Of a DNA stretch of 64,000 nt, positions 1,619 to 16,452 are shown in pieces. How positions within the stretch are numbered: position 1 is the first letter of the stretch; each line of letters starts with the position of its first letter. A program made the translations under genes and the position numbers. This stretch comes from Silvibacterium acidisoli (GTDB lineage: Bacteria; Acidobacteriota; Terriglobia; Terriglobales; Acidobacteriaceae). Location of the stretch: positions 3,658,001-3,722,000 of the forward strand of contig CP085323.1 of assembly GCA_022870745.1 (NCBI GenBank), written 5' to 3'. The notes beneath the pieces were generated by a model, which saw nothing but the letters and a program-made list of their open reading frames with translations, made no database searches and was not told the DNA's origin.

Positions 1619-2767
1619 ATGCAAGCGCGTCACGGATTTTTCTGCACATTTATAGGTGTCCTTAGCCTTGGTTTGTCCGCAACCATGAGCAGCTGTAGCT
1701 CGGGTTCGGCGCCGAAGGTTCTTCCTGGCCAAATCACGCTGGTGAACAACCGCCTCATGCGGGATGGTCAACCATGGGTTCCCCACGGCTTCTTCCAGGT
1801 CGCATTCCAGGCGTCTCCGAACGAGCAGAATGTGCCTAACTTCGAAGCCCAGGCACAGGCGAACTATACGCCGCTGGAGTATTCAAACATGGTGAAGGCA
1901 GGCGCCGATTCTGTTCGAGTCATGCTTGGACAAACCGTCGGGGATCCGCAGAATACACAGTTCTACTCCAAGGATTTTGTGAATCAGTTCATCGCTGCGG
2001 TTCAATCGGCGCGTAATGCCGGCCTCACGGTCATCGTGAGTATTCAAGACGAATCGATCGTTCAGGATCAGAACCCGACGCCGCTGCCGAACGATGCGAC
2101 GCAACGTGTGTGGGCTCAGCTCATGCCCGCGTTCAAAGACGATAAAGGGATTGTGCTCGAGTTATTCAATGAAGCCGGAACAGGACCCACCCAGGTACCC
2201 ACGGCTACCGACTGGCAGAACTGGGCAGCGGCGATGAACGCAACGATCGACAGCGTCCGCTCCGAAGGCGCAACGAATGTGGTTGTTGCCGATGGCCTGG
2301 CTCATGCAGGAACGCTCTCAGGAGCACCCGATCTGACGGATAAGTTGAATTCGGTGGCCTATGCCTCTCACCCCTACACCTTCAGTGCAGACAGCGAAAA
2401 ACCCGCCAATGAGCAAAGCTTCCTCGACGTCAGCTTTGGTAACTTCGCAGCAAACCATCCAGTGATCATTACAGAATGGGGGCAGGGATATTATTGCGGA
2501 CCCACGAACCCCGGCTTCCTGATTTACTTCCTCAACTACCTCCAGCAAAAAGGTATCGGCCTCGAAATGAGCTTTTGGGATTGGGGTGGTCCGACTGCAT
2601 TCGGCGGTACCCAGTACAACTTTCCCAACACACAGGTCTCGATGTACTACGACAACGGATCTCTGATTCCGTGTTCCACAAATGGCAGTCCTACACCGCA
2701 GCGCGGGCCCGGACAAACAATCAACACCTGGTATGCCACGGGCACGATTCCGGATAAAGCCATTTGA
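1619..2767 (+). CDS. GH5-like glycoside hydrolase, predicted lipoprotein
   Basis: This 382-residue protein starts with a lipoprotein signal (hydrophobic 6-22, cysteine at residue 26 within TMSSCSSG). A (beta/alpha)8-type cellulase fold follows. RDGQPWVPHGFFQ resembles the first strand of GH5 enzymes ('G.p....G.n'). LFNEAG places the acid/base Glu at residue 185 (the NEP motif region) and IITEWGQG the nucleophile Glu at residue 286. HPYTFS is the active-site His/Tyr segment seen between them. The fold and both glutamates support a retaining endo-acting glycanase, but the substrate (beta-glucan, mannan or other) cannot be set. It stands alone between the divergent NHL gene and a hydrolase cluster. 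Confidence 0.8.
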   Translation: MQARHGFFCTFIGVLSLGLSATMSSCSSGSAPKVLPGQITLVNNRLMRDGQPWVPHGFFQVAFQASPNEQNVPNFEAQAQANYTPLEYSNMVKAGADSVRVMLGQTVGDPQNTQFYSKDFVNQFIAAVQSARNAGLTVIVSIQDESIVQDQNPTPLPNDATQRVWAQLMPAFKDDKGIVLELFNEAGTGPTQVPTATDWQNWAAAMNATIDSVRSEGATNVVVADGLAHAGTLSGAPDLTDKLNSVAYASHPYTFSADSEKPANEQSFLDVSFGNFAANHPVIITEWGQGYYCGPTNPGFLIYFLNYLQQKGIGLEMSFWDWGGPTAFGGTQYNFPNTQVSMYYDNGSLIPCSTNGSPTPQRGPGQTINTWYATGTIPDKAI

Positions 2768-3041: not shown

Positions 3042-3791
3042 ATGTTCTTGCAAAAGGAAGAGACGAAAGTTGTCTTTGTGCACGGCGTGGCCGACACCTA
3101 CCGCATCTGGGATTGCACGCGCGAAAGTCTGAAGGACGATAACACGATCGCTCTTGCTCTGCCCGGTTTTGGTGCTGATATTCCCAGGGGATTCCGGTCG
3201 GAGAAGGAAGACTACGTGCAGTGGATCATCGGAGAACTCGAAGCGATTGGAAGTCCGGTCGATCTTGTCGGACACGACTGGGGTTCGATTCTGGTTCTGC
3301 GCGTGGCTTCACTACGGCCGGACCTGGTCCGAAGCGTCGCCGCTGGCAATGGGCCGATCAGCAGCGAGTATGAGTGGCATCAACTCGCGAAGATCTGGCA
3401 GACACCGGGAGAGGGAGAGGCGTTCATGCGCGACCTGGATGCGGAAAAGCTTGCTGGGCTGTTGCAAGGGCTGGGAGTCGAGGCAGCGGATGCGTTGGAG
3501 ACTGCGCAACGTGTTGACGATCGGATGAAGGACTCAATCCTCAAGCTTTACCGGTCTGCGCTTCATGTTGGGGAGGAATGGGAGCCGGGCCTTTCGAATG
3601 TCTCTTGTCCTGCGTTGATCTATTGGGGAAGGCAGGATAACGAGTGCCCGATTCTATATGCCTACTCCATGGCGCAGCACTTAAGGTTTTCCCGGGTCGC
3701 CGAGCTCGATTGCGGCCACTGGGTACCACTGAATAAACCAGTGGCTCTTGCTGAGCTGCTTGATGAGTTCTGGGAAAGTGAAAAGCATTAG
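3042..3791 (+). CDS. Alpha/beta hydrolase with Asp nucleophile (epoxide hydrolase / haloalkane dehalogenase type)
   Basis: A 249-residue alpha/beta hydrolase without signal peptide, so cytoplasmic. The oxyanion-hole segment is VVFVHGVAD (residues 10-18). The nucleophile elbow reads VGHDWG with Asp79, not Ser; Asp at this place is typical of epoxide hydrolases and haloalkane dehalogenases. The acid is probably Asp199 in WGRQDNECP and the base His226 in DCGHWVP. The gene ends 21 bp before the FAD oxidase at 3813 and is likely co-transcribed with it, suggesting that the two act on the same or successive compounds. The cap region is short, so the substrate stays open. Confidence 0.8.
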   Translation: MFLQKEETKVVFVHGVADTYRIWDCTRESLKDDNTIALALPGFGADIPRGFRSEKEDYVQWIIGELEAIGSPVDLVGHDWGSILVLRVASLRPDLVRSVAAGNGPISSEYEWHQLAKIWQTPGEGEAFMRDLDAEKLAGLLQGLGVEAADALETAQRVDDRMKDSILKLYRSALHVGEEWEPGLSNVSCPALIYWGRQDNECPILYAYSMAQHLRFSRVAELDCGHWVPLNKPVALAELLDEFWESEKH

Positions 3792-3812
3792 AAGAGCCGG
3801 AGTTGAAATCCA

Positions 3813-5243
3813 ATGCCTGATACAACGCAATCTATGTCGAAAATACCGCAGGACACCGGCGTTCCACTCTCTTCTGGATTTGTAACTGAGATGAAGCGTT
3901 TTGTTCCTGACTTCCTTCCATGGGGAGATGCCGCGGAAGAGCTTCTCCGAAATGCGGTCTTCAACGGGCAGGTTGTACCGCGGGCTCTCGGTGTCGTAGC
4001 GTGCCGCAACGAGACTGTAGTAATGGAAGCGATTAAAGTGGCTGCCCAACATGGTGTCCCGCTATCCGTACTGGCTGGCGGTCACGATTTTGCAGGGCGT
4101 GGCCTGGATGGCCGCAGTCTTTTGCTGGATCTCCGGCCGATGAACAGGGTCTCTGTTGATGCCTCTCAGGGACTTGTGACGGTGGAGGGTGGGGCGCTGG
4201 CATCGCATCTGCTCGATGCGATGCCGGACGATCTGGTAACTGTTACCGGAACCGCACGCTCCGTTGGTGTTGCTGGCTTTGCAGTGGCTGGAGGCTACGG
4301 GCCACTCAACAGCCGGTTTGGGCTGGGTGCCGATTGCATCGAGTCTGCTCGTATTGTGCTGGCGAACGGAGAGATCGCTACGGCAAGTGAAGAAGGAGAT
4401 AGGGATCTCCTGTGGGCGATACGGGGTGGTGGAAGTGGCTTTGGGGTGGTAGCTTCACTCACACTGCGAATGCATCGCCTGGAAAGGGTGTTAGCCGGAA
4501 CGCTTGTGTTCCCGCTTCATCGTGCCAAAGATGTTCTTCTCTATGCCCAGAAATTGCTGGCACTCCACCCGTTCGAGCTTTCTCTGTTTTCTGGCCTGGC
4601 CACAATACCGGGCCATGGTCCGATGCTCTTTATGGAGCCGCTTTGGACCGGTAATTCTTCGAGGGGGGACCGCATCGTCGAGGAGCTCCAGACACGTTTT
4701 GGCGCGACGGCCCTCGGACTTGCGTGGGCTCCCTATAAGACCACGTTCAATGACGAACAGGAGGAGAAGTCGCACCCTCGCGGATTCCATTACGACCTGC
4801 GCACGAGATTTGCCCGTGCGATAAACGCGGAGATCCTCGACGTGTTAATCGCCGCCGCGGAACGCTTTACTTCTCCCTATTCTGTCATTCTGTTGCACGA
4901 CTTCCATGGCAGGGCATCTCAGATAGAGGCGGCTGCGACGGCATTCCGCCTGCGGGAGAATCACACGCTCGTCGAGGTCATCTCTGCATGGTCACCGGAT
5001 GATGCTAAATCGAGTGCTGTACACGAAGGATGGAGAGCGCAGACGGTTCGGGAACTGGCTCCGTACGTGCTTCCCGGTACCTACTCGAGTCTTGCAGTTC
5101 TATCGGAAGCGGGGCGTGTCAGTGACTTCTTTGGAAATTCGGCAGAGCGTCTATCCTTTGTTAAGAAGCGAGTCGACCCGGATGATCTCTTCCGATCCGG
5201 CATTGGACGTCTTGCTGTCCCGGCAGTTGAAGATACCGCTTAG
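3813..5243 (+). CDS. Berberine-bridge-type FAD-linked oxidoreductase
   Basis: This 476-residue protein carries a PCMH-type FAD domain (about residues 55-225) and a BBE C-terminal segment ending in DPDDLFRSGIG. His91 in LAGGHDFAG is the residue that binds the FAD 8-methyl group covalently in this family. The second attachment residue, a Cys before VGVAGFAVAGGYG in bicovalent members, is Ala here (GTARSVGVAG), so FAD is predicted to be attached through one bond. Family members oxidise alcohols, sugars, phenols or alkaloid-like compounds with O2. It follows the Asp-type hydrolase by 21 bp. A paralogue lies at 10149-11510 on the other strand. Confidence 0.85.
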   Translation: MPDTTQSMSKIPQDTGVPLSSGFVTEMKRFVPDFLPWGDAAEELLRNAVFNGQVVPRALGVVACRNETVVMEAIKVAAQHGVPLSVLAGGHDFAGRGLDGRSLLLDLRPMNRVSVDASQGLVTVEGGALASHLLDAMPDDLVTVTGTARSVGVAGFAVAGGYGPLNSRFGLGADCIESARIVLANGEIATASEEGDRDLLWAIRGGGSGFGVVASLTLRMHRLERVLAGTLVFPLHRAKDVLLYAQKLLALHPFELSLFSGLATIPGHGPMLFMEPLWTGNSSRGDRIVEELQTRFGATALGLAWAPYKTTFNDEQEEKSHPRGFHYDLRTRFARAINAEILDVLIAAAERFTSPYSVILLHDFHGRASQIEAAATAFRLRENHTLVEVISAWSPDDAKSSAVHEGWRAQTVRELAPYVLPGTYSSLAVLSEAGRVSDFFGNSAERLSFVKKRVDPDDLFRSGIGRLAVPAVEDTA

Positions 5244-5296
5244 GTAGACAGCAAATTTTCTCCCGTTACCATAGCGAGGTGGGAGCACGAAGCGGA

Positions 5297-5926
5297 ATGG
5301 AGCAGAAACCAATAATCCGAGTGATGCTCGTCGATGACCATCCGGTGGTTCGGGAAGGGCTGCGCGCCATGATTGAATCGCAGCCCGACATGCAGGTCGT
5401 TGGAGAGTGTGAGAATGGAAAGGATGCGATCGCGTCTTTCCACACCTTGCGTCCCGAAATCATTTTGCTCGATCTCAAATTGCCGGATATGGATGGCATT
5501 CAAGTGATCGAGGTGATTCGCGAGAGCGTTCCAGATGCGCGAATCATTGTTCTGACCACCTATGTTGGTGACGTTCAAGCCAGGCGGGCCCTGAGGGCAG
5601 GCGCAAAGGGGTATCTTCTCAAAGCGTCGCTGCGCCGGGACCTGCGCGATTCCATCCGAGCGGTCCATGCCGGCGGCATCAAAGTACAATCTGAGGTCGC
5701 GACCGATCTCGCCAGGCATGAGGCTGCGGAGCACCTCACACAACGCGAGCTGGAAGTGCTCGCACTGATCGCGAGCGGCCTCTCTAACAAGCTCGTGGCG
5801 GATCGGCTTGGCATTCGTGAAGACACGGTGAAAGCCCATGTCACCAGTATTCTCAACAAGCTGAAGGCAAACGACCGTACGCATGCGGTGACGATTGCCC
5901 TGCAGCGCGGGTTCCTGGAACTGTGA
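5297..5926 (+). CDS. NarL/FixJ-type response regulator
   Basis: Two domains are visible. The receiver (about residues 5-120) has the acidic pair VDDHPVV and the phospho-acceptor Asp59 in ILLDLKLPDMDG, with the conserved Thr/Thr and Lys in IVLTTYVG and AKGYLLK. The C-terminal LuxR-type helix-turn-helix (about 145-200) reads LTQRELEVLALIASG and then KLVADRLGIREDTVKAH. The ATG at 5297 follows a GGTGGGAG-like ribosome site; an in-frame GTG at 5279 would add six residues. Its stop overlaps the GTG start of the histidine kinase (GTGA), so the pair is translationally coupled and should form a two-component system. Target promoters are unknown; neighbouring oxidases and hydrolases are candidates. Confidence 0.92.
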   Translation: MEQKPIIRVMLVDDHPVVREGLRAMIESQPDMQVVGECENGKDAIASFHTLRPEIILLDLKLPDMDGIQVIEVIRESVPDARIIVLTTYVGDVQARRALRAGAKGYLLKASLRRDLRDSIRAVHAGGIKVQSEVATDLARHEAAEHLTQRELEVLALIASGLSNKLVADRLGIREDTVKAHVTSILNKLKANDRTHAVTIALQRGFLEL

Positions 5927-8919
5927 AGACCCTTCTGGGCGTGCTCCAGCATCTTCTGCTGGTCGTTGTATTCGTGCCGCAGATTCTTCTCGCGCAGTCA
6001 GAGACGCTGGGCCAGATGCAGCACAACTCATGGGCCGGTCACGACGGCGCTCCTCTTGGAATTCATGCGGTGACCATGAGCCCGGATGGCCTGTTGTATC
6101 TCGGAACGATGAGCGGAGTGTATCGCTTCGACGGCGCCAGCTTTGAAGCAGTACCTACCCCGGGTGTCAAAAGCACGTCAACGGTGCGCAACCTTTTCTT
6201 TGACCAGCAGGGGGATTTGCTGATCATGCTGGCGCACGGTGCTCCAATACTTCTTCATAAGGGAAACGGGCAAACTGAACTGCTCGACCGTATCGATTCC
6301 GGCTTGCTTGAGACGATAAGTAATGTGCAACAAACGCCTGATGGCAGGCTCTGGGCCGTTATCAACGAGAGAGGGCTGGTCCAGCTAGGGCAAGACCACG
6401 TTTGGCATACAGTTCCAGATCCGCAGAACGGACACGGTCACATGACCCACCTGTTCGCCGATCCCCGGGGAACACTGTGGCTTGTCGTCGAAGATCATCT
6501 TTACCGGCTCCCACCCCATCAGAAGTCGTTCCTTCCAACGTCGATTTACGTCTATGGCGAAGGCAAAATCATGTCGGGCAATCATTCCGACCTGTGGATC
6601 GCCACTTCGGGGCCGGCAACATCGCCTGTACCTGCAAAGCATCTTCAACACATCAGCGATACCGGAGAACCGCTGCCGGCACCAGACATGAGCCTGCCGC
6701 TATCGGCTGCTTACCAGGCTCCTGACGGCTCGCTTTGGCTCCTCACCACGCAAAGCGCCTTAATCCATCTGCCAGGCGAGATTCTGGGCAGCTCTACCCC
6801 GGTTGATGTGGGCCACTGGAAAGATCAGCTCGTTCTTCGCAGCGCGACGCGTGAAGATGGTGCGTATGCTTTTTTCCCAGCGCATGACGGATCCATCTGG
6901 GTCGGTGGGCTTGGAGGTGTCGAACATTTCAAGCAGGCGACTCTCGTCCCGCTGCTTCAAAATGTCCCGGCTGGCCTTTGGGAGCAATGTTCAGAGAAAG
7001 ATGGCTCGCAATGGATTCTGGCCTCTGACAGGACGGTTTATCGGCGCGATCAAGACGGTTCGATGAAGGTCAAAGAGCATCTGGGAGATGCGTTGCATTG
7101 TTCGGAATTCGGAACTCTTGTCAGTAGCGACGCGGGTCTGATCAGTGTCAGTAATGGTGGTGAAAAACTACTGCCCACCTTGCCAGGACTGAAAGGGTAT
7201 GGCAATCACTATATCTTTACCGGAGCAACCTGGACGTCGCGGGGCACGATCGTGGCGGCGGCAGCGGGCGGAGCTTTGGGGCGCTCGCTGTGGGAGTATC
7301 GTGCGCAGGCCTGGCATCGACTCGATTCAGGGAATCCAAGCTCAGAACTTTCTGGCATGGCAGCATGGCCTTCAGGAGAAGTGTATCTCGGCTTCCGGGA
7401 CGGAACAGTTGGCATCCTGGATCCCGGAGCCGAGCGAGTGCGGCTAGTCGCGAACTGCAATTACAGACCCGTACTCGGTTTTTCGCGAACATCGAAGGGG
7501 CTTATCGTCTACGGGGTAGGTGGCATCTCTCTCGCGGAACAAGAGAAATGCCGGACGCTTCAATTCGAAGACCAGTCTCTTTCCAAGGTAATTACTGGAG
7601 TAGCAGAGACCCCGGATGGAGACATCTGGCTGAATGGAGCCAGGGGCATTGTGCGGGTCTCTTCACGAGAGTTCGCAGCCGCGACTCTCGATGCCCGGCA
7701 TCGCCTTCTTGCAAACAACATCTCCGAAGGGGATTTCACCGGTCCAGCGGCACCACGTTTGTTTGCCCACTCTGTCCAGTTTGGGGTGCAGGGGCGTGTG
7801 TGGTTCAACACCCTGAATGGGGTGGTCTCCATCGCGCCTGGAACTGTGCATTCTCCGGAACCGCCGCCCCTGGTCATAAAAGATGTGCGGGCGGATAATG
7901 CTCCGCTACCCGCGAATAACACCCTGGCGCCCGGTGTTAATACGTTGAGCATCGGTTACATCGGCATCGATTTTTCCGACCCTTCCGGCCTCACCTATGC
8001 CTATAAACTTGATGGCTACGACAATGCATGGCAGGATGTAGGATCGCGCACCGAGGCGGTCTACACGCATCTGCGTGCCGGAAAGTATGTCTTCTCCGTG
8101 AAGGCACGGAATGCTTATGGCATCTGGACCGATCCAGTCAGCCTGCCCCCCTTTTGGGTGCTGCCGCATTTCTACGAGCGTGGATGGTTCCTTGCAATTC
8201 TGGCTCTTCTCGCGCTACTGGCCGTGTGGGTCGCACTTCAATTTCGGCTGCGTAAGGCCGCTGCAGAGATTAGGCAGCGAGCAGAGGAGCGAGCTGACGA
8301 ACGCGTAAGGATAGCTCGTGATCTGCATGACACTCTTCTCCAGGGAGTGCAGGGGCTTCTTCTCAGCTTCCACGCTGCGATCGAAGGTGTGCCGTCAGAG
8401 CACGCGTCGAGGCCGCCTTTAGAGCGAGCACTTACAACGGCCGAGAAGCTTATCCTGGAGGGTCGGGATCGGGTGAAAGGGCTTCGCAAGACAGAAATGT
8501 CGGGCGATGAACTCGGCCAGCTCTTTGTGGTAGTGGCAGAAGATCTTGCCTGCGTCGAACGATTCCGCCTGGTCGTATCGCCAAATTCCACGGCGAGAAC
8601 GCGTCTTCGAGACTCCATCGCGGCCGAGTTATTCCTGATAGGGAGAGAAGCGATCGTCAATGCTGCCAGGCACTCCGAGGCGACACAAATTATCATGCGT
8701 CTTCATTTCGCCGAAGATTGCTTCACCCTGGAGTGCGAAGACAACGGCGTCGGTTTCGATCTGGAAGATCCGGACTTCATAAAGAGGCAGTCGCACTGGG
8801 GAATTTCCGGCATGCGAGAGAGGGTAGAAACACTGCAAGGAGTTTTGCGGATCCATAGTGCACCTGGGGATGGGACATGCCTCAGTGTCCAGGTGAAGGC
8901 GAAGCAGGCGTATCTCTGA
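5923..8919 (+). CDS. Hybrid-propeller sensor histidine kinase (Reg_prop/Y_Y_Y, HisKA_3)
   Basis: A 998-residue membrane sensor. After a signal peptide (hydrophobic 9-22) comes a long periplasmic propeller region (about 30-640) with repeated 'pDG.lWl.t..Gv.r' units such as SPDGLLYLGTMSGVYRFDG and TPDGDIWLNGARGIVRV. Next are a Y_Y_Y-like Ig domain (about 660-735), one membrane helix (about 750-770), a HisKA_3 dimerisation helix with phospho-acceptor His802 in ARDLHDTLLQGVQG, and a HATPase domain with REAIVNAARHS, DNGVGFD and WGISGMRERV. This architecture is common in polysaccharide- or metabolite-sensing kinases of Bacteroidota and Acidobacteriota. It starts with GTG inside the regulator stop codon. 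The ligand is not predictable. Confidence 0.92.
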   Translation: MKTLLGVLQHLLLVVVFVPQILLAQSETLGQMQHNSWAGHDGAPLGIHAVTMSPDGLLYLGTMSGVYRFDGASFEAVPTPGVKSTSTVRNLFFDQQGDLLIMLAHGAPILLHKGNGQTELLDRIDSGLLETISNVQQTPDGRLWAVINERGLVQLGQDHVWHTVPDPQNGHGHMTHLFADPRGTLWLVVEDHLYRLPPHQKSFLPTSIYVYGEGKIMSGNHSDLWIATSGPATSPVPAKHLQHISDTGEPLPAPDMSLPLSAAYQAPDGSLWLLTTQSALIHLPGEILGSSTPVDVGHWKDQLVLRSATREDGAYAFFPAHDGSIWVGGLGGVEHFKQATLVPLLQNVPAGLWEQCSEKDGSQWILASDRTVYRRDQDGSMKVKEHLGDALHCSEFGTLVSSDAGLISVSNGGEKLLPTLPGLKGYGNHYIFTGATWTSRGTIVAAAAGGALGRSLWEYRAQAWHRLDSGNPSSELSGMAAWPSGEVYLGFRDGTVGILDPGAERVRLVANCNYRPVLGFSRTSKGLIVYGVGGISLAEQEKCRTLQFEDQSLSKVITGVAETPDGDIWLNGARGIVRVSSREFAAATLDARHRLLANNISEGDFTGPAAPRLFAHSVQFGVQGRVWFNTLNGVVSIAPGTVHSPEPPPLVIKDVRADNAPLPANNTLAPGVNTLSIGYIGIDFSDPSGLTYAYKLDGYDNAWQDVGSRTEAVYTHLRAGKYVFSVKARNAYGIWTDPVSLPPFWVLPHFYERGWFLAILALLALLAVWVALQFRLRKAAAEIRQRAEERADERVRIARDLHDTLLQGVQGLLLSFHAAIEGVPSEHASRPPLERALTTAEKLILEGRDRVKGLRKTEMSGDELGQLFVVVAEDLACVERFRLVVSPNSTARTRLRDSIAAELFLIGREAIVNAARHSEATQIIMRLHFAEDCFTLECEDNGVGFDLEDPDFIKRQSHWGISGMRERVETLQGVLRIHSAPGDGTCLSVQVKAKQAYL

Positions 8920-8920
8920 C

Positions 8921-8938
8921 CCCCCACTTTAGTGGGGG
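8921..8938 (+). terminator. Hairpin directly after the kinase gene
   Basis: CCCCCAC (8921-8927), loop TTTA, GTGGGGG (8932-8938): a perfect 7-bp GC-rich stem that starts one base after the kinase stop codon. No run of T follows, so it is either a weak terminator or an mRNA-end stabiliser separating the two-component operon from the AraC-type gene at 9024. Confidence 0.5.
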
Positions 8939-9023
8939 ATCGCGAGTGGATGATCGAGCTATAGATATTGACCCACGTTCTATCGCAGGATGGTTGAAGC
9001 AGAAGGAGACTTTGATCATCACT

Positions 9024-10064
9024 ATGCTTGCGACCATCCCCACGCCTCGCAATACCTCCGACTCGAATTTTCAATGGACGCCGCACGAACTCACAACCTC
9101 AGAGCCGCGCCGGATCGTCATCGTAACGCAAGGTGCTTCTGAGAGCGTTGAGCCACAGCTGATTCGTCACGTTTTCCAGGAGGCTGGACGCGTGCCGGAC
9201 GTGGAGCGATCGTATTCGATCGAACTCGTTTCACTCGACAGGCGCGCGGATCGGAACGACTTGTATCCATTGGACGCAATCGACCCTTCCGATGCGATCG
9301 ACACCATATTCATTACTGGTTCGTACGAGCCAGCTTTCTGCGAACTGGAGCGAGAGTGTCTTAGCTGGCTCAAGGATCACTGTATGCGAAGCCGTCGCAT
9401 TGTTGCGACCGCTGGCGGGATCCTGTACCTAGCCGCGATGGGGCTCCTCAATGGCCGGGCGGCTGTAAGTCATTGGAGTATGCACAGTCATATCGCAGGC
9501 GCGTCTTCAGAAGTCTCCGTTCGTTCGGACATCCTGTATACGCAGGACGGAAACATATACACATGCGCCGGGGCTCTGGCGAGCGTGGATTTGGTTTTGA
9601 GCCTGGTTGAGGAAGATCTGGGAAATGCAGTGAGCTCTCATGTAGCGCGCCATCTTCTCGTCCCATTTCAGCGGACAGCCATTTGCAGTCAGATCAGTTC
9701 GACACTCCAGGCACAAATCTCTGTCAAGCATCCTATCTCCGACCTGCTTGCATGGCTGCCAGATCAGCTTGCTTCAAATCTCTCTGTTGCGAAACTGGCT
9801 CGTCGCGTGGCGATGAGCCCTCGAAACTTTGCCCGTCGATTCCGTGAGCAAGTGAAAATGACTCCAGCGCACTACATTGAAGACCTGAGATTCGAGGCCG
9901 CGAAGAGAGAGCTCTTCCGTGAAGGCGAATCGATCAGCGAGGTAGCTGCACGCTGTGGCTTCAACAATGTTGAATCGCTTCGACGCCTCTTCCAGCGCCG
10001 TCTAGGCATGACGCCAAAGGCCTTTCGCGACCGCATGATTGGGTGTCCATCCTCGATGCAGTAG
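9024..10064 (+). CDS. GlxA-like transcriptional regulator (DJ-1/PfpI domain + AraC HTH)
   Basis: Residues 25-190 form a DJ-1/PfpI (class I amidotransferase-like) domain, residues about 245-335 an AraC-type double helix-turn-helix: LSVAKLARRVAMSPRNFARR is the first helix-turn-helix and SISEVAARCGFNNVESLRR the second, followed by GMTPKAFR. In the amidotransferase-like domain the nucleophile elbow is ATAGGILYLAAMGLLNGR, so the Cys usual in the family (CTGA) is replaced by Ala and the domain should only sense a ligand. The ATG at 9024 follows AAGGAG at some distance; the frame is open upstream to 8877 inside the kinase gene, which is not favoured. It lies between the two-component operon and the second FAD oxidase, which it may control. 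Confidence 0.85.
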   Translation: MLATIPTPRNTSDSNFQWTPHELTTSEPRRIVIVTQGASESVEPQLIRHVFQEAGRVPDVERSYSIELVSLDRRADRNDLYPLDAIDPSDAIDTIFITGSYEPAFCELERECLSWLKDHCMRSRRIVATAGGILYLAAMGLLNGRAAVSHWSMHSHIAGASSEVSVRSDILYTQDGNIYTCAGALASVDLVLSLVEEDLGNAVSSHVARHLLVPFQRTAICSQISSTLQAQISVKHPISDLLAWLPDQLASNLSVAKLARRVAMSPRNFARRFREQVKMTPAHYIEDLRFEAAKRELFREGESISEVAARCGFNNVESLRRLFQRRLGMTPKAFRDRMIGCPSSMQ

Positions 10065-10148
10065 TGACCCTGGCGAAACGCGTGTGCTGCTCTGGGCAGG
10101 GAGCTGCGCCCACATTGAGGCCGAAGGCATGTGGCGTGAAACAACAGC

Positions 10149-11510
10149 TCAAATTTTCGAACTGGATTCTGGCAGTGAAATCGCATTGAATAGTCGATTC
10201 GGATCGTAGCGTTGCTTCAGGCTCAGTAGCCGGCCGGCGTTCTCGCCGTAAGCTTGTGCTGCCTGGTCAGGGCGATCTGTTCCGAAATAATTAGGGTATG
10301 AGCTGGTAAGCGCAAAAGGCTTCAACGCTGCCTCGACTCCGTCCGCCCATGCGCGATGAGGAGCCTCTTCGCCAGGTTGCCATGCAGTATAGATTCCAAC
10401 CATGAAGTGTCGCGTCCGAATTCCGAAAGCAGTCGAACGGAGAGGGATTCTTTCACCGGCTCCGTAGAACGGATGTGAGGCGATCCAGCTCAGCGGTGAG
10501 CTGCGATGTTCCATGGCTCGGCGAATAACTTGAATTGAGGCGGGCGTTAACTCCGGCAAAGTGACAGTACGGACAATCCAGTGAATCCCTGTCATTGTTC
10601 TCCGCTCAGCCTCCTTCAATACTTCGGCAAGAGTTTTTCTGCTCACCTGCACGGTCGTGGGCGCGCCGAGACTTTTTACTCGTTCAATCATCCGTTCATC
10701 CTGGGCCTGATCACCGCACCATGCAAGGTGGAAGACGATGCTCAGCTTACCGTCCGGTGCAGCGAAGAATGTCGGCATCACAGTCAGGCCGTCAGGCAAC
10801 GTAGCAATCATTGCGCTGTACGCCTTGAAGACTTCCCCTGCCTGCTCCCAGGGAAAGGCGATGATTCCATCCGCGATATTTGCTACTGGATGCAACTTGA
10901 GGCGAAGCTGAGTGACAACACCGAAGTTTCCGCCACCACCTCGAATTGCCCAGAAGAGATCCGGTTCCTGTGTTTCATCGGTCTGGATTACTCGCCCATC
11001 GGCGAGAACAACCTCCGCGCCAACGATATTGTCCAACGCCATACCGAATTTGGCGGTCAGGTGTCCGTAGCCGCCGCCCAAAGCGAGTCCGGCTACACCA
11101 ACGCTTCCTATAATCCCCGTTACAGCAGTCAGACCCTGCGCGCTTGCTGCCTCTGCAAGGTCAGTGGAGATGGTGCCGCCGCCGATGGTGGCCACGTGCC
11201 CATCGATCGCCACACCCCTCATTCGCGTGAGATCGGCCACCACCTGCCCATTGACGGAGCGTCCTGCCCAATCATGTCCTCCGCCTCGAACAGAAAAAGA
11301 TAATTTGCAGCTTGCAGCTGCCAGGACAGCGGCCTGCACGTCGCTGGTGTTTTCACATAGAACGACGATCTGCGGATACAGCTGCACTGCGGCATTCCAT
11401 ATATTCCGTGTTTTTTCGTAATCAGTGCCTGACGAAACCACCTTAGAGGTTCCCAGTCGAGTGGTGAGTATTCGAAATGCTTTCTCGATTGTGCCAAACT
11501 CTTCCTGCAT
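10149..11510 (-). CDS. Berberine-bridge-type FAD-linked oxidoreductase (second copy)
   Basis: A 453-residue paralogue of the enzyme at 3813-5243. The FAD domain contains SVRGGGHDWAG with His79, VATIGGG, and SVGVAGLALGGGYGHLTAKFG. As in the first copy the bicovalent Cys is missing (TGIIGSVG), so one covalent bond to FAD is expected. The C-terminal BBE segment ends RYDPNRLFNAI. The ATG at 11510 is chosen because AAGAAGGG lies nine bases upstream; the frame remains open to 11663 but the extra 51 residues are not family-like. It converges with the AraC-type regulator and diverges from the hydrolase at 11916. The substrate is unknown. Confidence 0.85.
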   Translation of the reverse strand: MQEEFGTIEKAFRILTTRLGTSKVVSSGTDYEKTRNIWNAAVQLYPQIVVLCENTSDVQAAVLAAASCKLSFSVRGGGHDWAGRSVNGQVVADLTRMRGVAIDGHVATIGGGTISTDLAEAASAQGLTAVTGIIGSVGVAGLALGGGYGHLTAKFGMALDNIVGAEVVLADGRVIQTDETQEPDLFWAIRGGGGNFGVVTQLRLKLHPVANIADGIIAFPWEQAGEVFKAYSAMIATLPDGLTVMPTFFAAPDGKLSIVFHLAWCGDQAQDERMIERVKSLGAPTTVQVSRKTLAEVLKEAERRTMTGIHWIVRTVTLPELTPASIQVIRRAMEHRSSPLSWIASHPFYGAGERIPLRSTAFGIRTRHFMVGIYTAWQPGEEAPHRAWADGVEAALKPFALTSSYPNYFGTDRPDQAAQAYGENAGRLLSLKQRYDPNRLFNAISLPESSSKI

Positions 11511-11915
11511 GATCGAGTGTCCCTTCTTGGCTTCAAAGTTTATGGAGGCGCTTGCAGAGATGCCGCGGGGCATCGTCTTACCGCTGTACTTACCCACGAT
11601 ATTTCGACGTTGCAAGCTGCCTGCGGGTACAGGTTGTAAGCTGCCAAAGCTCAGACGATTCACGCCTCATTGATGCCGCAATGTGCTTGCGGCAATCCAA
11701 TAGCACCGCCCTCATTGGGTGAGATCACAGCCTCTGCGATGGTTCGAAGGAAAGCTTGGGACACAGGCCATAGCCTTTTGGGCAAGCAGTCGCAAAGGTT
11801 ATGGCAGGATACGCAGCAGATTTGTCTTCTCCGGTGGGGTCTCTGAGAAACGATCAGGCGTCTCACAAAATGTGGTCTGCCTTCGAAATGGACCGCCGCC
11901 CAGTGAATAGATCTG
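11511..11915. other. Divergent intergenic region
   Basis: About 400 bp between the FAD oxidase (leftward) and an alpha/beta hydrolase (rightward). It must hold the promoters of both genes. A short minus-strand frame (11660-11866) has no recognisable content. I see no clear -35/-10 pair or long palindrome. Confidence 0.4.
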
Positions 11916-12692
11916 ATGAAACATATCTTTCTGAATGGACATCGTTTTGCTTACGACCTGCAGGGAACCGGACCGATCACTGTGATTCTTGAAACTGGCC
12001 TCGGTGCTGAGGCCGGCGAGTGGCAAGTCGTCGCTGATAAGATCAACAGCCGCGCCACCGTGTTTCTGTATGACAGGGCTGGCCGTGGAGAGAGCGATCC
12101 ACCGTCAACTGCGCGCGACGCTGTGCAGCTGCATCGGGACCTCAATATGCTGCTCGCGGAAGCAGCGGTACATCCCCCATTTCTCCTGGTCGGGCATTCA
12201 TTCGGCGGCGTACTCACACGGGTGTTCGCCCGGCGAAGGCGAAATGATGTTCGCGGCCTGGTTCTTGTAGAATCCATGCATCCCAGACAATTTGAGGAGA
12301 TAGGCCCTGCGATTCCAGAGTTATCGGCTCAAGAACTTCCAGCGCTCACACAGATGCGTGAGTTTTGGCGGCACGGTTGGGTGAAGGCCGAATCCTCACC
12401 TGAACTTATCGATCTTCCTCGGTCCTTGCAGCAGGATGAAGCATTGCAGAATCTCGGTGTTTTGCCGCTGCATGTCATCACAGCTGCATCTTTCCGGAAG
12501 CTGCCATTCTTGCCTGATCTCGATGCAGGGCAGCGGCTGCAAAGCATCTGGGATAGTCTCCAAAATGATTTTGTGGCATTGTCCCCGAAAACAAACCACA
12601 CACGCCTCGATGACAGCGGCCATTTTGTGCAAAGAGACGCACCGATGGCGATCGTCGAGGCCATCATGCCTATGCTTTTGGCTCCCGACTGA
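11916..12692 (+). CDS. Alpha/beta hydrolase, serine type
   Basis: A 258-residue cytoplasmic alpha/beta hydrolase. Features in order: TVILETGLGAE (oxyanion region), YDRAGRGES (typical strand-4 motif), nucleophile Ser95 in LVGHSFGGVL, and the catalytic His in DDSGHFVQ near the C-terminus. The cap between about residues 125 and 190 is rich in Leu, Glu and Trp. Motif order fits carboxylesterase or proline-iminopeptidase-like hydrolases, and the reaction cannot be fixed further. It is divergent from the FAD oxidase at 10149, mirroring the hydrolase-oxidase pairing at 3042-5243. Confidence 0.8.
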   Translation: MKHIFLNGHRFAYDLQGTGPITVILETGLGAEAGEWQVVADKINSRATVFLYDRAGRGESDPPSTARDAVQLHRDLNMLLAEAAVHPPFLLVGHSFGGVLTRVFARRRRNDVRGLVLVESMHPRQFEEIGPAIPELSAQELPALTQMREFWRHGWVKAESSPELIDLPRSLQQDEALQNLGVLPLHVITAASFRKLPFLPDLDAGQRLQSIWDSLQNDFVALSPKTNHTRLDDSGHFVQRDAPMAIVEAIMPMLLAPD

Positions 12693-12773: not shown

Positions 12774-14132
12774 ATGGATCTAGCAACCGGCACCTCGACC
12801 TACCAATCTCGCTCAGAGCAACAAGCAGACTGGTCGTTCGGCTCACGTGCCTTATTCCGTCTGGTGGCGGCCTTCACGCTTCTTGCCCTCACCCTGAACT
12901 ACTCGCCGTGGAGTGTGATTCCGGTAGTCGGAAGGTATATGAGTGATGCCGTCGCAAAACCGCTGCAAGCGATCGCAGGCTGGCTCATCTCACATGTGTT
13001 TCACGTTGCCGGCATTGCTGCGACACAGCATTCTACAGATTCGCGCGACACCGCTTTTGACTGGGTCTCGATGCTGACGGTGCTCGTCCTGTCGGCGGTC
13101 GTTGCAATCGTGTGGAGCGTACTCGATCGAAAGAAGCGTAGCCTCAGCACGCAGGCTACCTGGCTGCGACACATTACCCGTCTCATGCTCATCTTCGTGA
13201 TGGTGCGCTACGGTATCTTCAAGATCTTCCCGATGCAGATGAGCCGTCCGTCATTGGGAGTGCTCAATGAACCGGTTGGCCAAAGTTCGCCGATGTCTCT
13301 GCTCTGGACACTTATCGGCTTGAGTCCGGCGTATCAAATACTCAGTGGGGTGTTTGAAGCGCTTTGTGCCGTCCTCTTGTGTTTTGAAAAGACGGCTCTG
13401 CCTGGCACTCTGCTCGGCATCGTCGTAATGAGCAACGTCGTGCTGTTCAACTTTTGTTTTGACGTGCCTGTGAAGTTGGGTGCATTGCTCATTCTTTTCG
13501 GATTCATCGTGCTGCTCTGGCAGGATGTCCCTACGTTGTACAGCTTTTTCAGCAGGCGTGGCATACGTCTCCACACTCGTTGGCGGCCTGTTTTTAAGAC
13601 GGCTCGCTTGAAGAGACTCGCCTACGGGGTCGAGCTCTTCTACGTAATGTGTGTCATCTACGTGTTGGTTCCACCAGCTTACACAAGTGAAAGGCGAGAG
13701 GCGGCGCATCTGAGATCCCCGTCGTCCCTGGCAGGCCAGTGGCATGTCGAGTCGGCCACAAAGCGCGAAGGAAGTGAAACCGTCGATGCGCCGGTTCTCA
13801 CGGCCGAGCTCCTTCCCTTGACTGATCTTTATCTCGAACCGGATGGCCGTGCGATGGCGCGTTCAAGCGATGGACGACTGTGGCGAAGTACGGCCGACAT
13901 AGACGAGGCAGGCTCCAGCTTGTCTCTCTACTCGTATTATTTCGATGGCGAACGCTTTCAGGCGACTTATCACTATTCCTACAAAGATAGTCAGCATCTC
14001 CTGCTGGTTCCCGTCGGAAAAGACTCCGCCTCCGAGAGCACGCTTATCCTTGAGCGCGTGGCGTTGCCTGAAAGCTATCCACTTCTGCATCCTCATTTTC
14101 ACTGGGTGGAGGAGTGGGCTCTTGAGCGATAG
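12774..14132 (+). CDS. DoxX-like multi-pass membrane protein with C-terminal soluble part
   Basis: A 452-residue protein with hydrophobic segments near residues 28-48, 65-82, 96-115, 133-150, 175-200, 207-225, 232-250 and 285-300, so seven or eight membrane helices. The helix RYGIFKIFPMQM and the later GVFEALCAVLLCFE block resemble DoxX/DoxD-type proteins. About 150 residues follow the last helix and lack a recognised domain; they contain ADIDEAGSSLSLYSYYFDGERFQATYHY and look like a beta-rich periplasmic or cytoplasmic domain. AGGAAG precedes the ATG by about ten bases. The role is unknown; DoxX-like proteins have been linked to redox and quinone functions. Confidence 0.65.
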   Translation: MDLATGTSTYQSRSEQQADWSFGSRALFRLVAAFTLLALTLNYSPWSVIPVVGRYMSDAVAKPLQAIAGWLISHVFHVAGIAATQHSTDSRDTAFDWVSMLTVLVLSAVVAIVWSVLDRKKRSLSTQATWLRHITRLMLIFVMVRYGIFKIFPMQMSRPSLGVLNEPVGQSSPMSLLWTLIGLSPAYQILSGVFEALCAVLLCFEKTALPGTLLGIVVMSNVVLFNFCFDVPVKLGALLILFGFIVLLWQDVPTLYSFFSRRGIRLHTRWRPVFKTARLKRLAYGVELFYVMCVIYVLVPPAYTSERREAAHLRSPSSLAGQWHVESATKREGSETVDAPVLTAELLPLTDLYLEPDGRAMARSSDGRLWRSTADIDEAGSSLSLYSYYFDGERFQATYHYSYKDSQHLLLVPVGKDSASESTLILERVALPESYPLLHPHFHWVEEWALER

Positions 14133-15093: not shown

Positions 15094-16452
15094 TTGTTGA
15101 GTAGCCAGAACGAGGACATTTTCTTGCAAGTTAACTACCGTCATCCGCATAACAGGTTCGGCCTTACGAATATCGCGAGGCTCATCGTCTCTTGTGCTTC
15201 ATTGTGTACATTCATGCTCGCAGTCTCCGGCTGCGGAGGTTCGTCGATGTCGTCATCCGGTACGGGGGGAACTACACCGACGGCTCCCGCCATCCCCGCA
15301 GGGATCCACCCCTTGACGCAGGTGGACGCTACAGCCAATACGGGTTACTTTGAAGACCCCCTGCCCATCCATCTCGCACAGACAGCGGGCTCATACATTC
15401 CTTCGATTGCGGGGACAACGCATCAGGTCTTGACCTGCACGACCCTAGCTTCCGGATGCTACAGCTCGAGCGCAATCACGATTACGACCGGCGCAGCGCT
15501 GATGGCACAACTTCCAGCGAATACCAAGCTCAATGGCTATCAGAACAACAACATCTATCAGGACAACGCTGGCAACTGGCAAATGGCGACGACAGTCACC
15601 GTGAACAATCCTGCGGCCAATCCTAATGGCCTGCCCTGGAATGTGATCCTTCATGCAAGCCCGGTCAGCGGTAGCGCCACGAGTTCTGCGGGAGTTCCTC
15701 TTGCCTGGTCTTCTGACGCGCTGCTCATCGGCTCGTTCACAAACCAGGAAAATGCGAATTACGACGGTAAGTACCTTGAAGATAGTGGGAAGCTCTACCT
15801 GATCTACAGCAGGCGGCTGCAGGACTCGCCCTCTGCGCAGGACGGCATCGTTGCGCAGCTCATGACGTCGGCGCAACAGGTGGACAGCAGTTCTCCCACA
15901 ACGCTGCTGGCGCCGGAGAATAATTCAGATGGCGGATATAAGTCGGAGCTCTTCGACTGTGCGAGCGCTTCGAATCAGTTCAAGCTGATCGAGACCGGCA
16001 ACATCACCGTTGTGAACGGTAAATATGCGATGGCTTATTCGACAGGCTCCTTCGAAACTCCATGCTACAAAGTCGGAATTGCATGGTCGGACACATTGAC
16101 CGGACAATACAAAAAGATTCTGCAGGCGGATACTTCAAATGTCTGGCAGAACCCTTCACCAGAGCCTGAGGTGTTATACCTGATCCAGGCCCAGCAGTCC
16201 GCCTGGCCAAACTATGTGAACTCGAGCGTGCAGGGGCCGGGAGTTCCTTCCCTTGTGCAATACCCGGCAGGCACGTGGTATCTCTACTTCGCGGGCTATG
16301 ATCCTTCCGTTCCGCTCGACTCCGGCATGTTCAACCCCAAGCTTCGTCAGCCCTACTTCATGAGATTGAATGTCGCGATTCCCGCAAACGCGACCGTTGC
16401 GGGAACATCGAACTCCGATCTTGCAGGATGGATCTCCGCAGCTACGCAATAA
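15094..16452 (+). CDS. Predicted lipoprotein with five-bladed propeller (GH43-like)
   Basis: The product is up to 452 residues. It starts at TTG 15094, and a start at TTG 15124 is also possible since neither has a strong ribosome site. The signal ends in a lipobox, LAVSGC, followed by a Ser/Gly/Thr-rich linker, typical of exported lipoproteins of this group. The body shows WSSDALLIGSF, YLEDSGKLYLIYSRR, NGKYAMAYSTGSFETP, YKVGIAWSDTLTGQYKK and GTWYLYFAGYDPS, the strand pattern of GH43/GH32/GH68-type five-bladed propellers, where such 'Y.iyS...' segments line the active site. Catalytic Asp/Glu residues cannot be assigned safely. It is probably a surface enzyme on an arabinan-, xylan- or similar glycan. 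Confidence 0.6.
   Translation: MLSSQNEDIFLQVNYRHPHNRFGLTNIARLIVSCASLCTFMLAVSGCGGSSMSSSGTGGTTPTAPAIPAGIHPLTQVDATANTGYFEDPLPIHLAQTAGSYIPSIAGTTHQVLTCTTLASGCYSSSAITITTGAALMAQLPANTKLNGYQNNNIYQDNAGNWQMATTVTVNNPAANPNGLPWNVILHASPVSGSATSSAGVPLAWSSDALLIGSFTNQENANYDGKYLEDSGKLYLIYSRRLQDSPSAQDGIVAQLMTSAQQVDSSSPTTLLAPENNSDGGYKSELFDCASASNQFKLIETGNITVVNGKYAMAYSTGSFETPCYKVGIAWSDTLTGQYKKILQADTSNVWQNPSPEPEVLYLIQAQQSAWPNYVNSSVQGPGVPSLVQYPAGTWYLYFAGYDPSVPLDSGMFNPKLRQPYFMRLNVAIPANATVAGTSNSDLAGWISAATQ

Follow-up and report, generated by a model that had tools for sequence, protein, structure and literature searches.

The window analyzed here is a 64,000-nucleotide stretch of the Silvibacterium acidisoli genome (contig CP085323.1, positions 3,658,001 to 3,722,000), which is assembled as one contig of 5.36 Mb. 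Between positions 3042 and 12692, a preliminary description made from the letters alone had placed seven genes: two oxidases of the berberine bridge enzyme (BBE) type, each beside an alpha/beta hydrolase, around a response regulator (RR), a propeller histidine kinase (HK), and a GlxA-like regulator. The list of open reading frames (ORFs) and a Pfam scan of the window bear out all seven, which are given below with three of their neighbors.

Gene order and spacing at the locus

1619..2767, plus strand: GH5 (cellulase-family) glycosidase with a lipoprotein-like N-terminus (PF00150, E 2e-23)
3042..3791, plus strand: hydrolase 1 (hyd1), alpha/beta fold, with a GHDWG (Asp-nucleophile-like) motif (PF12697/PF00561)
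3813..5243, plus strand: oxidase 1 (BBE1), EncM-like VAO/BBE flavoprotein (PF01565 and PF08031 over cut-off)
5279..5926, probable start 5297, plus strand: NarL/LuxR-type RR (PF00072, PF00196)
5923..8919, plus strand: propeller sensor HK (Reg_prop PF07494, Y_Y_Y PF07495, HisKA_3 PF07730, HATPase_c PF02518)
8877..10064, probable start about 9023, plus strand: GlxA-like regulator (DJ-1/PfpI PF01965 and AraC-type helix-turn-helix (HTH) PF12833)
10149..11663, probable start 11510, minus strand: oxidase 2 (BBE2), EncM-like VAO/BBE flavoprotein (PF01565, PF08031)
11916..12692, plus strand: hydrolase 2 (hyd2), alpha/beta fold, with a GHSFG (Ser-nucleophile-like) motif (PF00561)
12774..14132, plus strand: multi-pass membrane protein, DoxX-like by eye without a family match (no Pfam or NCBIfam match)
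15094..16452, plus strand: GH43 glycosidase, lipoprotein-like (PF04616)

The genes hyd1, BBE1, RR, and HK share one strand and are tightly spaced (21 bp between hyd1 and BBE1, 35-53 bp between BBE1 and RR, and a 4-bp overlap of RR and HK), and to judge from this spacing they are likely co-transcribed. The ATG at 5297 has, by eye, a better ribosome site than the RR start at 5279. The HK and GlxA-like genes are separated by approximately 100 bp. A strong hairpin with no clear T-run lies at 8920-8945, directly after the HK stop and before the GlxA-like gene, and scans for promoters and terminators gave chance-level results only.

The oxidase/hydrolase pairs had been described as mirrored, which holds for their order and fails for their strands and families: hyd1 and BBE1 are in tandem, the GlxA-like gene and BBE2 are convergent, BBE2 and hyd2 are divergent, and the hydrolases belong to different families. 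A duplicated mirror pair was rejected as an explanation, as the oxidases are 31% identical and the hydrolases are unrelated by BLASTP, sharing only a 16-residue match (E 0.031) and differing by eye in their GHDWG and GHSFG motifs. A shared operator was also rejected. The 15-base near-match between 2775-2789 (upstream of hyd1) and 11896-11910 (in the BBE2/hyd2 gap, upstream of hyd2), in opposite orientation, is the best of ten region pairs and is not significant after correction; its score was reached by 17 of 1500 shuffled pairs and by 34 of 1500 random window pairs, the latter total including overlapping draws that were skipped yet counted. With three or fewer mismatches this motif has six matches in the window versus 3.19 expected, and the score of a second, 14-base match was reached in 25/1500 cases.

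Besides GH5 and GH43, Pfam identifies GH2, GH130, and GH27 genes in the window. A mannan/galactomannan-type set at 29681-49895 comprises GH2 (beta-mannosidase-like), GH130, GH5, and GH27 (melibiase) genes together with outer-membrane receptor genes.

The regulators in other genera

The other eight genomes of the genus contain no kinase above approximately 28% identity to HK over its full length. Among 398 genomes of the family, G356 and G072 carry full-length copies at 51%, G306 carries one at 39%, and the next copies are at about 33%. RR is found at 69-71% in the same three genomes (70-71% in G072 and G356), and in G072 copies of the GlxA-like gene (40-41%) adjoin it. HK, RR, and GlxA recur together in two other genera, those of G072 and G356, where HK is divergent from a run of GH5 remnant, truncated GH43, RR, truncated GlxA, and GlxA. 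The truncated GH43 copy (65-66%) directly adjoins the RR gene in both genomes, and the GH5 remnant adjoins this GH43 fragment; a 70% copy of the window GH5 lies about 45 kb from HK in G072. Counterparts of GH43 are found in G072 and G359.

The interval 6.687-6.897 Mb of G072 holds the RR, HK, and GlxA homologs along with homologs of NHL (61%), GH5 (70% and 40%), and GH43 (65%, truncated; 41%; 36%). The same interval also holds a homolog of the membrane protein at 12774-14132 (51%, some 8 kb away from the regulator module), the BBE1 copy, and a broken BBE2-like remnant. The window neighborhood thus has a scrambled counterpart in G072, of which HK and RR are the best-kept genes. Approximately 18 kb of G356 (L173, G356:C8, 1-18000) matches G072 (L192/L193) at 98-99% DNA identity across the boundary between genera and includes the kinase/regulator module, indicating that the region is laterally mobile and was recently transferred.

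Elsewhere the module is reduced. In G306 only RR is kept beside HK, on a 6.4-kb contig. All eight of the more distant HK loci have an RR homolog within the same 18 kb, three of the eight within 1 kb, and no oxidase or GlxA was detected on these stretches. The most constant partner of the regulators is each other, and GH5/GH43 genes are the next most consistent, by a link that is historical. The preliminary description had suggested that these regulators serve an oxidative pathway, perhaps for aromatics or a specialized metabolite, which is not supported; they recur instead with one another and with GH5/GH43 genes or remnants.

The oxidases, the hydrolases, and their neighbors

Both oxidases have FAD_binding_4 and the BBE C-terminal domain above Pfam cut-offs, and among solved structures each matches EncM best (BBE1, E 1.5e-41; BBE2, E 1.6e-63). 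The second flavin-linking Cys is replaced in both, as had been noticed earlier, by Ala148 in BBE1 and by Ile in BBE2, and the flavin-binding His is present in both. When 119 EncM-like sequences are aligned (the two window oxidases and copies from 112 loci), this His occurs in 114 and the Cys in six, being absent in 113; Cys loss was rejected as a special shared trait on this count, and it is ordinary in the EncM-like branch. The site of EncM Thr139 is Val in BBE1, BBE2, and 34 of their 36 nearest relatives, and among 31 other copies in the family to which the window belongs, 24 have Thr there. A T139V change is described as having given EncM, whose flavin is carried on His78, oxidase activity (review, PMC7662398). 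Bicovalent FAD is described as typical of BBE-like oxidases and is not expected here, yet membership in the VAO/BBE family still stands, as mono-covalent members are on record (PMC11375781). Since Val occupies the Thr139 site in both, BBE1 and BBE2 are predicted to be plain mono-covalent (His-linked) oxidases. Neither has a signal peptide evident by eye.

These residues bear on whether the locus could belong to a natural-product cluster of EncM type, with flavin-N5-oxide chemistry, as the EncM match of both oxidases might suggest. EncM is described as the sole N5-oxide user known in its subfamily (PMC11375781), both window oxidases carry the same Val that turned EncM to oxidase activity, and no polyketide or peptide synthase was noticed among the window ORFs, which were inspected by eye with no cluster caller run. 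Such a cluster seems highly improbable.

In a phylogenetic tree BBE1 groups with two G072 copies and BBE2 is placed apart; a grouping of the two window oxidases together was not rejected by test (p-AU 0.311). Two genomes of the Actinoplanes group (L113, L123) each contain two adjacent oxidases of the EncM-like branch, divergent in sequence.

Scanning genome contigs with the BBE1 sequence alone found nothing; relatives were obtained by an alignment-based scan, in which 585 were confirmed and the best 80 returned. A BBE1 match of some kind occurs in 80/150 genomes of the family, and close copies are confined to G072, G026, and G142, at 35% in the last two. One of the G072 copies, at 39%, has one in-frame TGA, and a second is at 33%. 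Outside these three genomes, no BBE1 match closer than approximately 33% was found in 347 genomes of the phylum. BBE2 has a 46% copy in G026. By eye, the BBE1 relatives have an AraC-type gene downstream in G072, an AraC-type gene upstream in G142, and RNA-polymerase sigma-like and methyltransferase-like ORFs beside them in G026.

Conservation of the neighborhood, the check that the preliminary description had set for its own claim, was run and was not borne out, as the neighbors of the oxidases vary. A count by tblastn covered the best 80 oxidase loci, 59 of them with full 3-kb flanks, with the ends of the oxidase match preset to 10001-11260 for most loci. A propeller kinase adjoins none of these 59, for which the count gave an alpha/beta hydrolase at two, a response regulator at two, and AraC-type, LysR, and TetR regulators and a second oxidase at three each. 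A Pfam tally of 119 neighboring ORFs at the 34 nearest loci (154 candidates less ORFs of more than 450 residues and two Agrobacterium loci) contained six alpha/beta hydrolases, three aldo/keto reductases, two LysR, and two AraC members; single-member families are listed in part in this tally, so a lone kinase or regulator could escape it. On Agrobacterium plasmids, 44% relatives of BBE1 adjoin LysR, cupin, and hydrolase genes or sit between AraC and GlxA genes. What recurs beside these oxidases is a one-component regulator of changing class; the kinase does not recur.

The notion from the preliminary description, that both oxidase/hydrolase pairs supply the enzymes of a dedicated and sensed pathway oxidizing aromatics or a small specialized metabolite, survives only in part. 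The tight spacing from hyd1 to HK makes a co-directional operon likely, two related oxidases lie within 9 kb, and several classes of regulator adjoin BBE1 relatives (AraC in G072 and G142; AraC with GlxA, or LysR with cupin and hydrolase, in Agrobacterium). Against such a pathway, hyd1 and hyd2 are unrelated, the 59 related oxidases lack an adjoining kinase, and the only relatives with the kinase trio have their oxidases broken or distant, the BBE1 copy (about 40%) of G072 lying about 72 kb from HK. The sensor type also points toward sugars. We regard this pathway as unlikely.

The hydrolases have histories of their own. The nearest solved chains of hyd1 are an epoxide hydrolase and haloalkane dehalogenases, weak matches whose alignment shows the GHDWG motif and a C-terminal GH, and hyd2 weakly matches esterases and related proteins. 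Close copies of hyd1 (48-51%) occur in three others of the 398 family genomes (G072, G359, and G239), in each case near TetR genes and in none near a BBE-type oxidase; the G359 copy has a GH5-GH43 pair at a distance of about 3 kb. Two identical copies of a recombinase/transposase-type element (L081, 4682-6996 and 11966-14280) enclose the G072 copy of hyd1 together with its TetR gene and a gene resembling flavin monooxygenases. No close copy of hyd2 was found in eight genomes searched, where the best full-length-like match was 32%.

Distributions of this kind raise the main rival to the reading that we favor below, a functionally unlinked mosaic in which accessory genes, the oxidases and hydrolases among them, drifted within a recombining island to a place beside an independent two-component pair. 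The parts are distributed separately: BBE1 is close in three others of 150 genomes, hyd1 in three others of 398, GH43 in G072 and G359, and HK in G072, G356, and more weakly G306. Identical gene order is found in no relative, hyd1 in G072 is bracketed by the mobile-element copies, and regions of this type move, as is shown by the roughly 18 kb that two genera share at 99% identity. The short one-strand gaps of hyd1-BBE1-RR-HK argue instead for a single transcript, and we consider the mosaic a real possibility, though somewhat unlikely.

A proposed sugar-sensing module with recruited oxidases

The reading that we favor, to which we would give about an even chance, places a two-component module of oligosaccharide type in an accessory island for plant polysaccharides; in this genome, cytosolic oxidase and hydrolase genes would have been recruited and would be driven by the module as well. 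It is favored because of the tight hyd1-BBE1-RR-HK spacing, the recurrence of HK, RR, and GlxA with GH5/GH43 remnants, and the type of the sensor, which resembles that of hybrid two-component systems (HTCS), and also because GH5, GH43, GH2, GH130, and GH27 genes share the window. HK and RR would act as a two-component pair. To judge from its family, the periplasmic double-propeller/Y_Y_Y sensor of HK most likely has as its ligand an oligosaccharide set free by glycosidases, for instance by the GH5 and GH43 lipoproteins that flank the module. The phosphorylated NarL-type RR would then switch on local genes, with the GlxA-like regulator as a second local input. In the window genome hyd1 and BBE1 would have come to head the operon. 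Both oxidases would be cytosolic and mono-covalent, with O2 as acceptor, and their substrates may be aglycones or phenolic decorations liberated along with the sugar; the hydrolases would be separate recruits rather than matched partners. Gene content, spacing, domains, residue states, and the recurrences in other genomes are observed, and co-transcription, the oligosaccharide ligand, and HK control of the oxidases are what we infer from spacing and family membership. A more specific proposal, which we hold to be improbable, is that a kinase outside Bacteroidota senses oligosaccharides and co-regulates extracellular glycosidases with alpha/beta hydrolases and cytosolic EncM-like oxidases; oxidation of the phenolic or aglycone decorations freed with plant sugars would then keep pace with polysaccharide breakdown.

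Several observations weigh against the sugar-sensing module. In G072 and G356 the GH5 and GH43 genes that adjoin the module are truncated, which shows past adjacency rather than present use, and these two genomes count as one lineage because of the 18 kb that they share. A broken BBE2-like remnant lies about 8 kb from HK in G072, making an old tie between the regulator module and an oxidase possible, and the Agrobacterium relatives of BBE1 keep company with one-component regulators. The match of the HK sensor to HTCS sensors is mainly in its C-terminal part.

If the sugar-sensing module is real, flavoprotein oxidases were added to the operon of an acidobacterial propeller kinase of sugar type, which would modestly hint at a link in soil between redox tailoring and the sensing of plant polymers. 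If the locus is a mosaic, it cautions against inferring function from gene order, however striking, where islands recombine. The grouping is lineage-specific and has more the look of an accessory island that was reshuffled than of a novel type of system. In open-license literature, screened by title and the start of the abstract, no Acidobacteriota locus combining a berberine bridge enzyme with a histidine kinase was found.

The individual parts can be compared with known systems. Like EncM of Streptomyces maritimus, the window oxidases have the common fold family, a full-length match, and a His-only flavin site with no Cys; unlike EncM, both have Val in place of Thr139, lack a polyketide context, and show identity of the 25-33% class. 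With the epoxide hydrolase/haloalkane dehalogenase branch, which supplies its nearest solved chains, hyd1 shares the GHDWG motif, but it has only 249 residues and falls under every curated cut-off. The GlxA-like regulator shares with GlxA-family regulators the DJ-1/PfpI-like domain and AraC-type HTH (PF01965 and PF12833 over cut-off), and it scores far under the curated cut-offs for FtrA, GbdR, and other named members. The HK sensor matches the Bacteroides HTCS sensor chains 4a2l and 3v9f, and, as in HTCS, a Reg_prop propeller and Y_Y_Y sensor (PF07494 and PF07495 over cut-off) feeds a histidine kinase with glycosidase genes adjoining; propeller kinases are not rare in the window genome, which has six Y_Y_Y matches. 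In Bacteroides, four sensors of this build are described as binding oligosaccharides specific to the polysaccharide that their locus degrades (PMC3243724). Whereas HTCS join kinase, receiver, and AraC-type output in a single chain, here the kinase, of HisKA_3 type, and the regulator, of NarL/LuxR rather than AraC type, are separate genes. By analogy, the HK/RR pair would work like an HTCS without being one, and the locus as a whole is a new arrangement of known parts.

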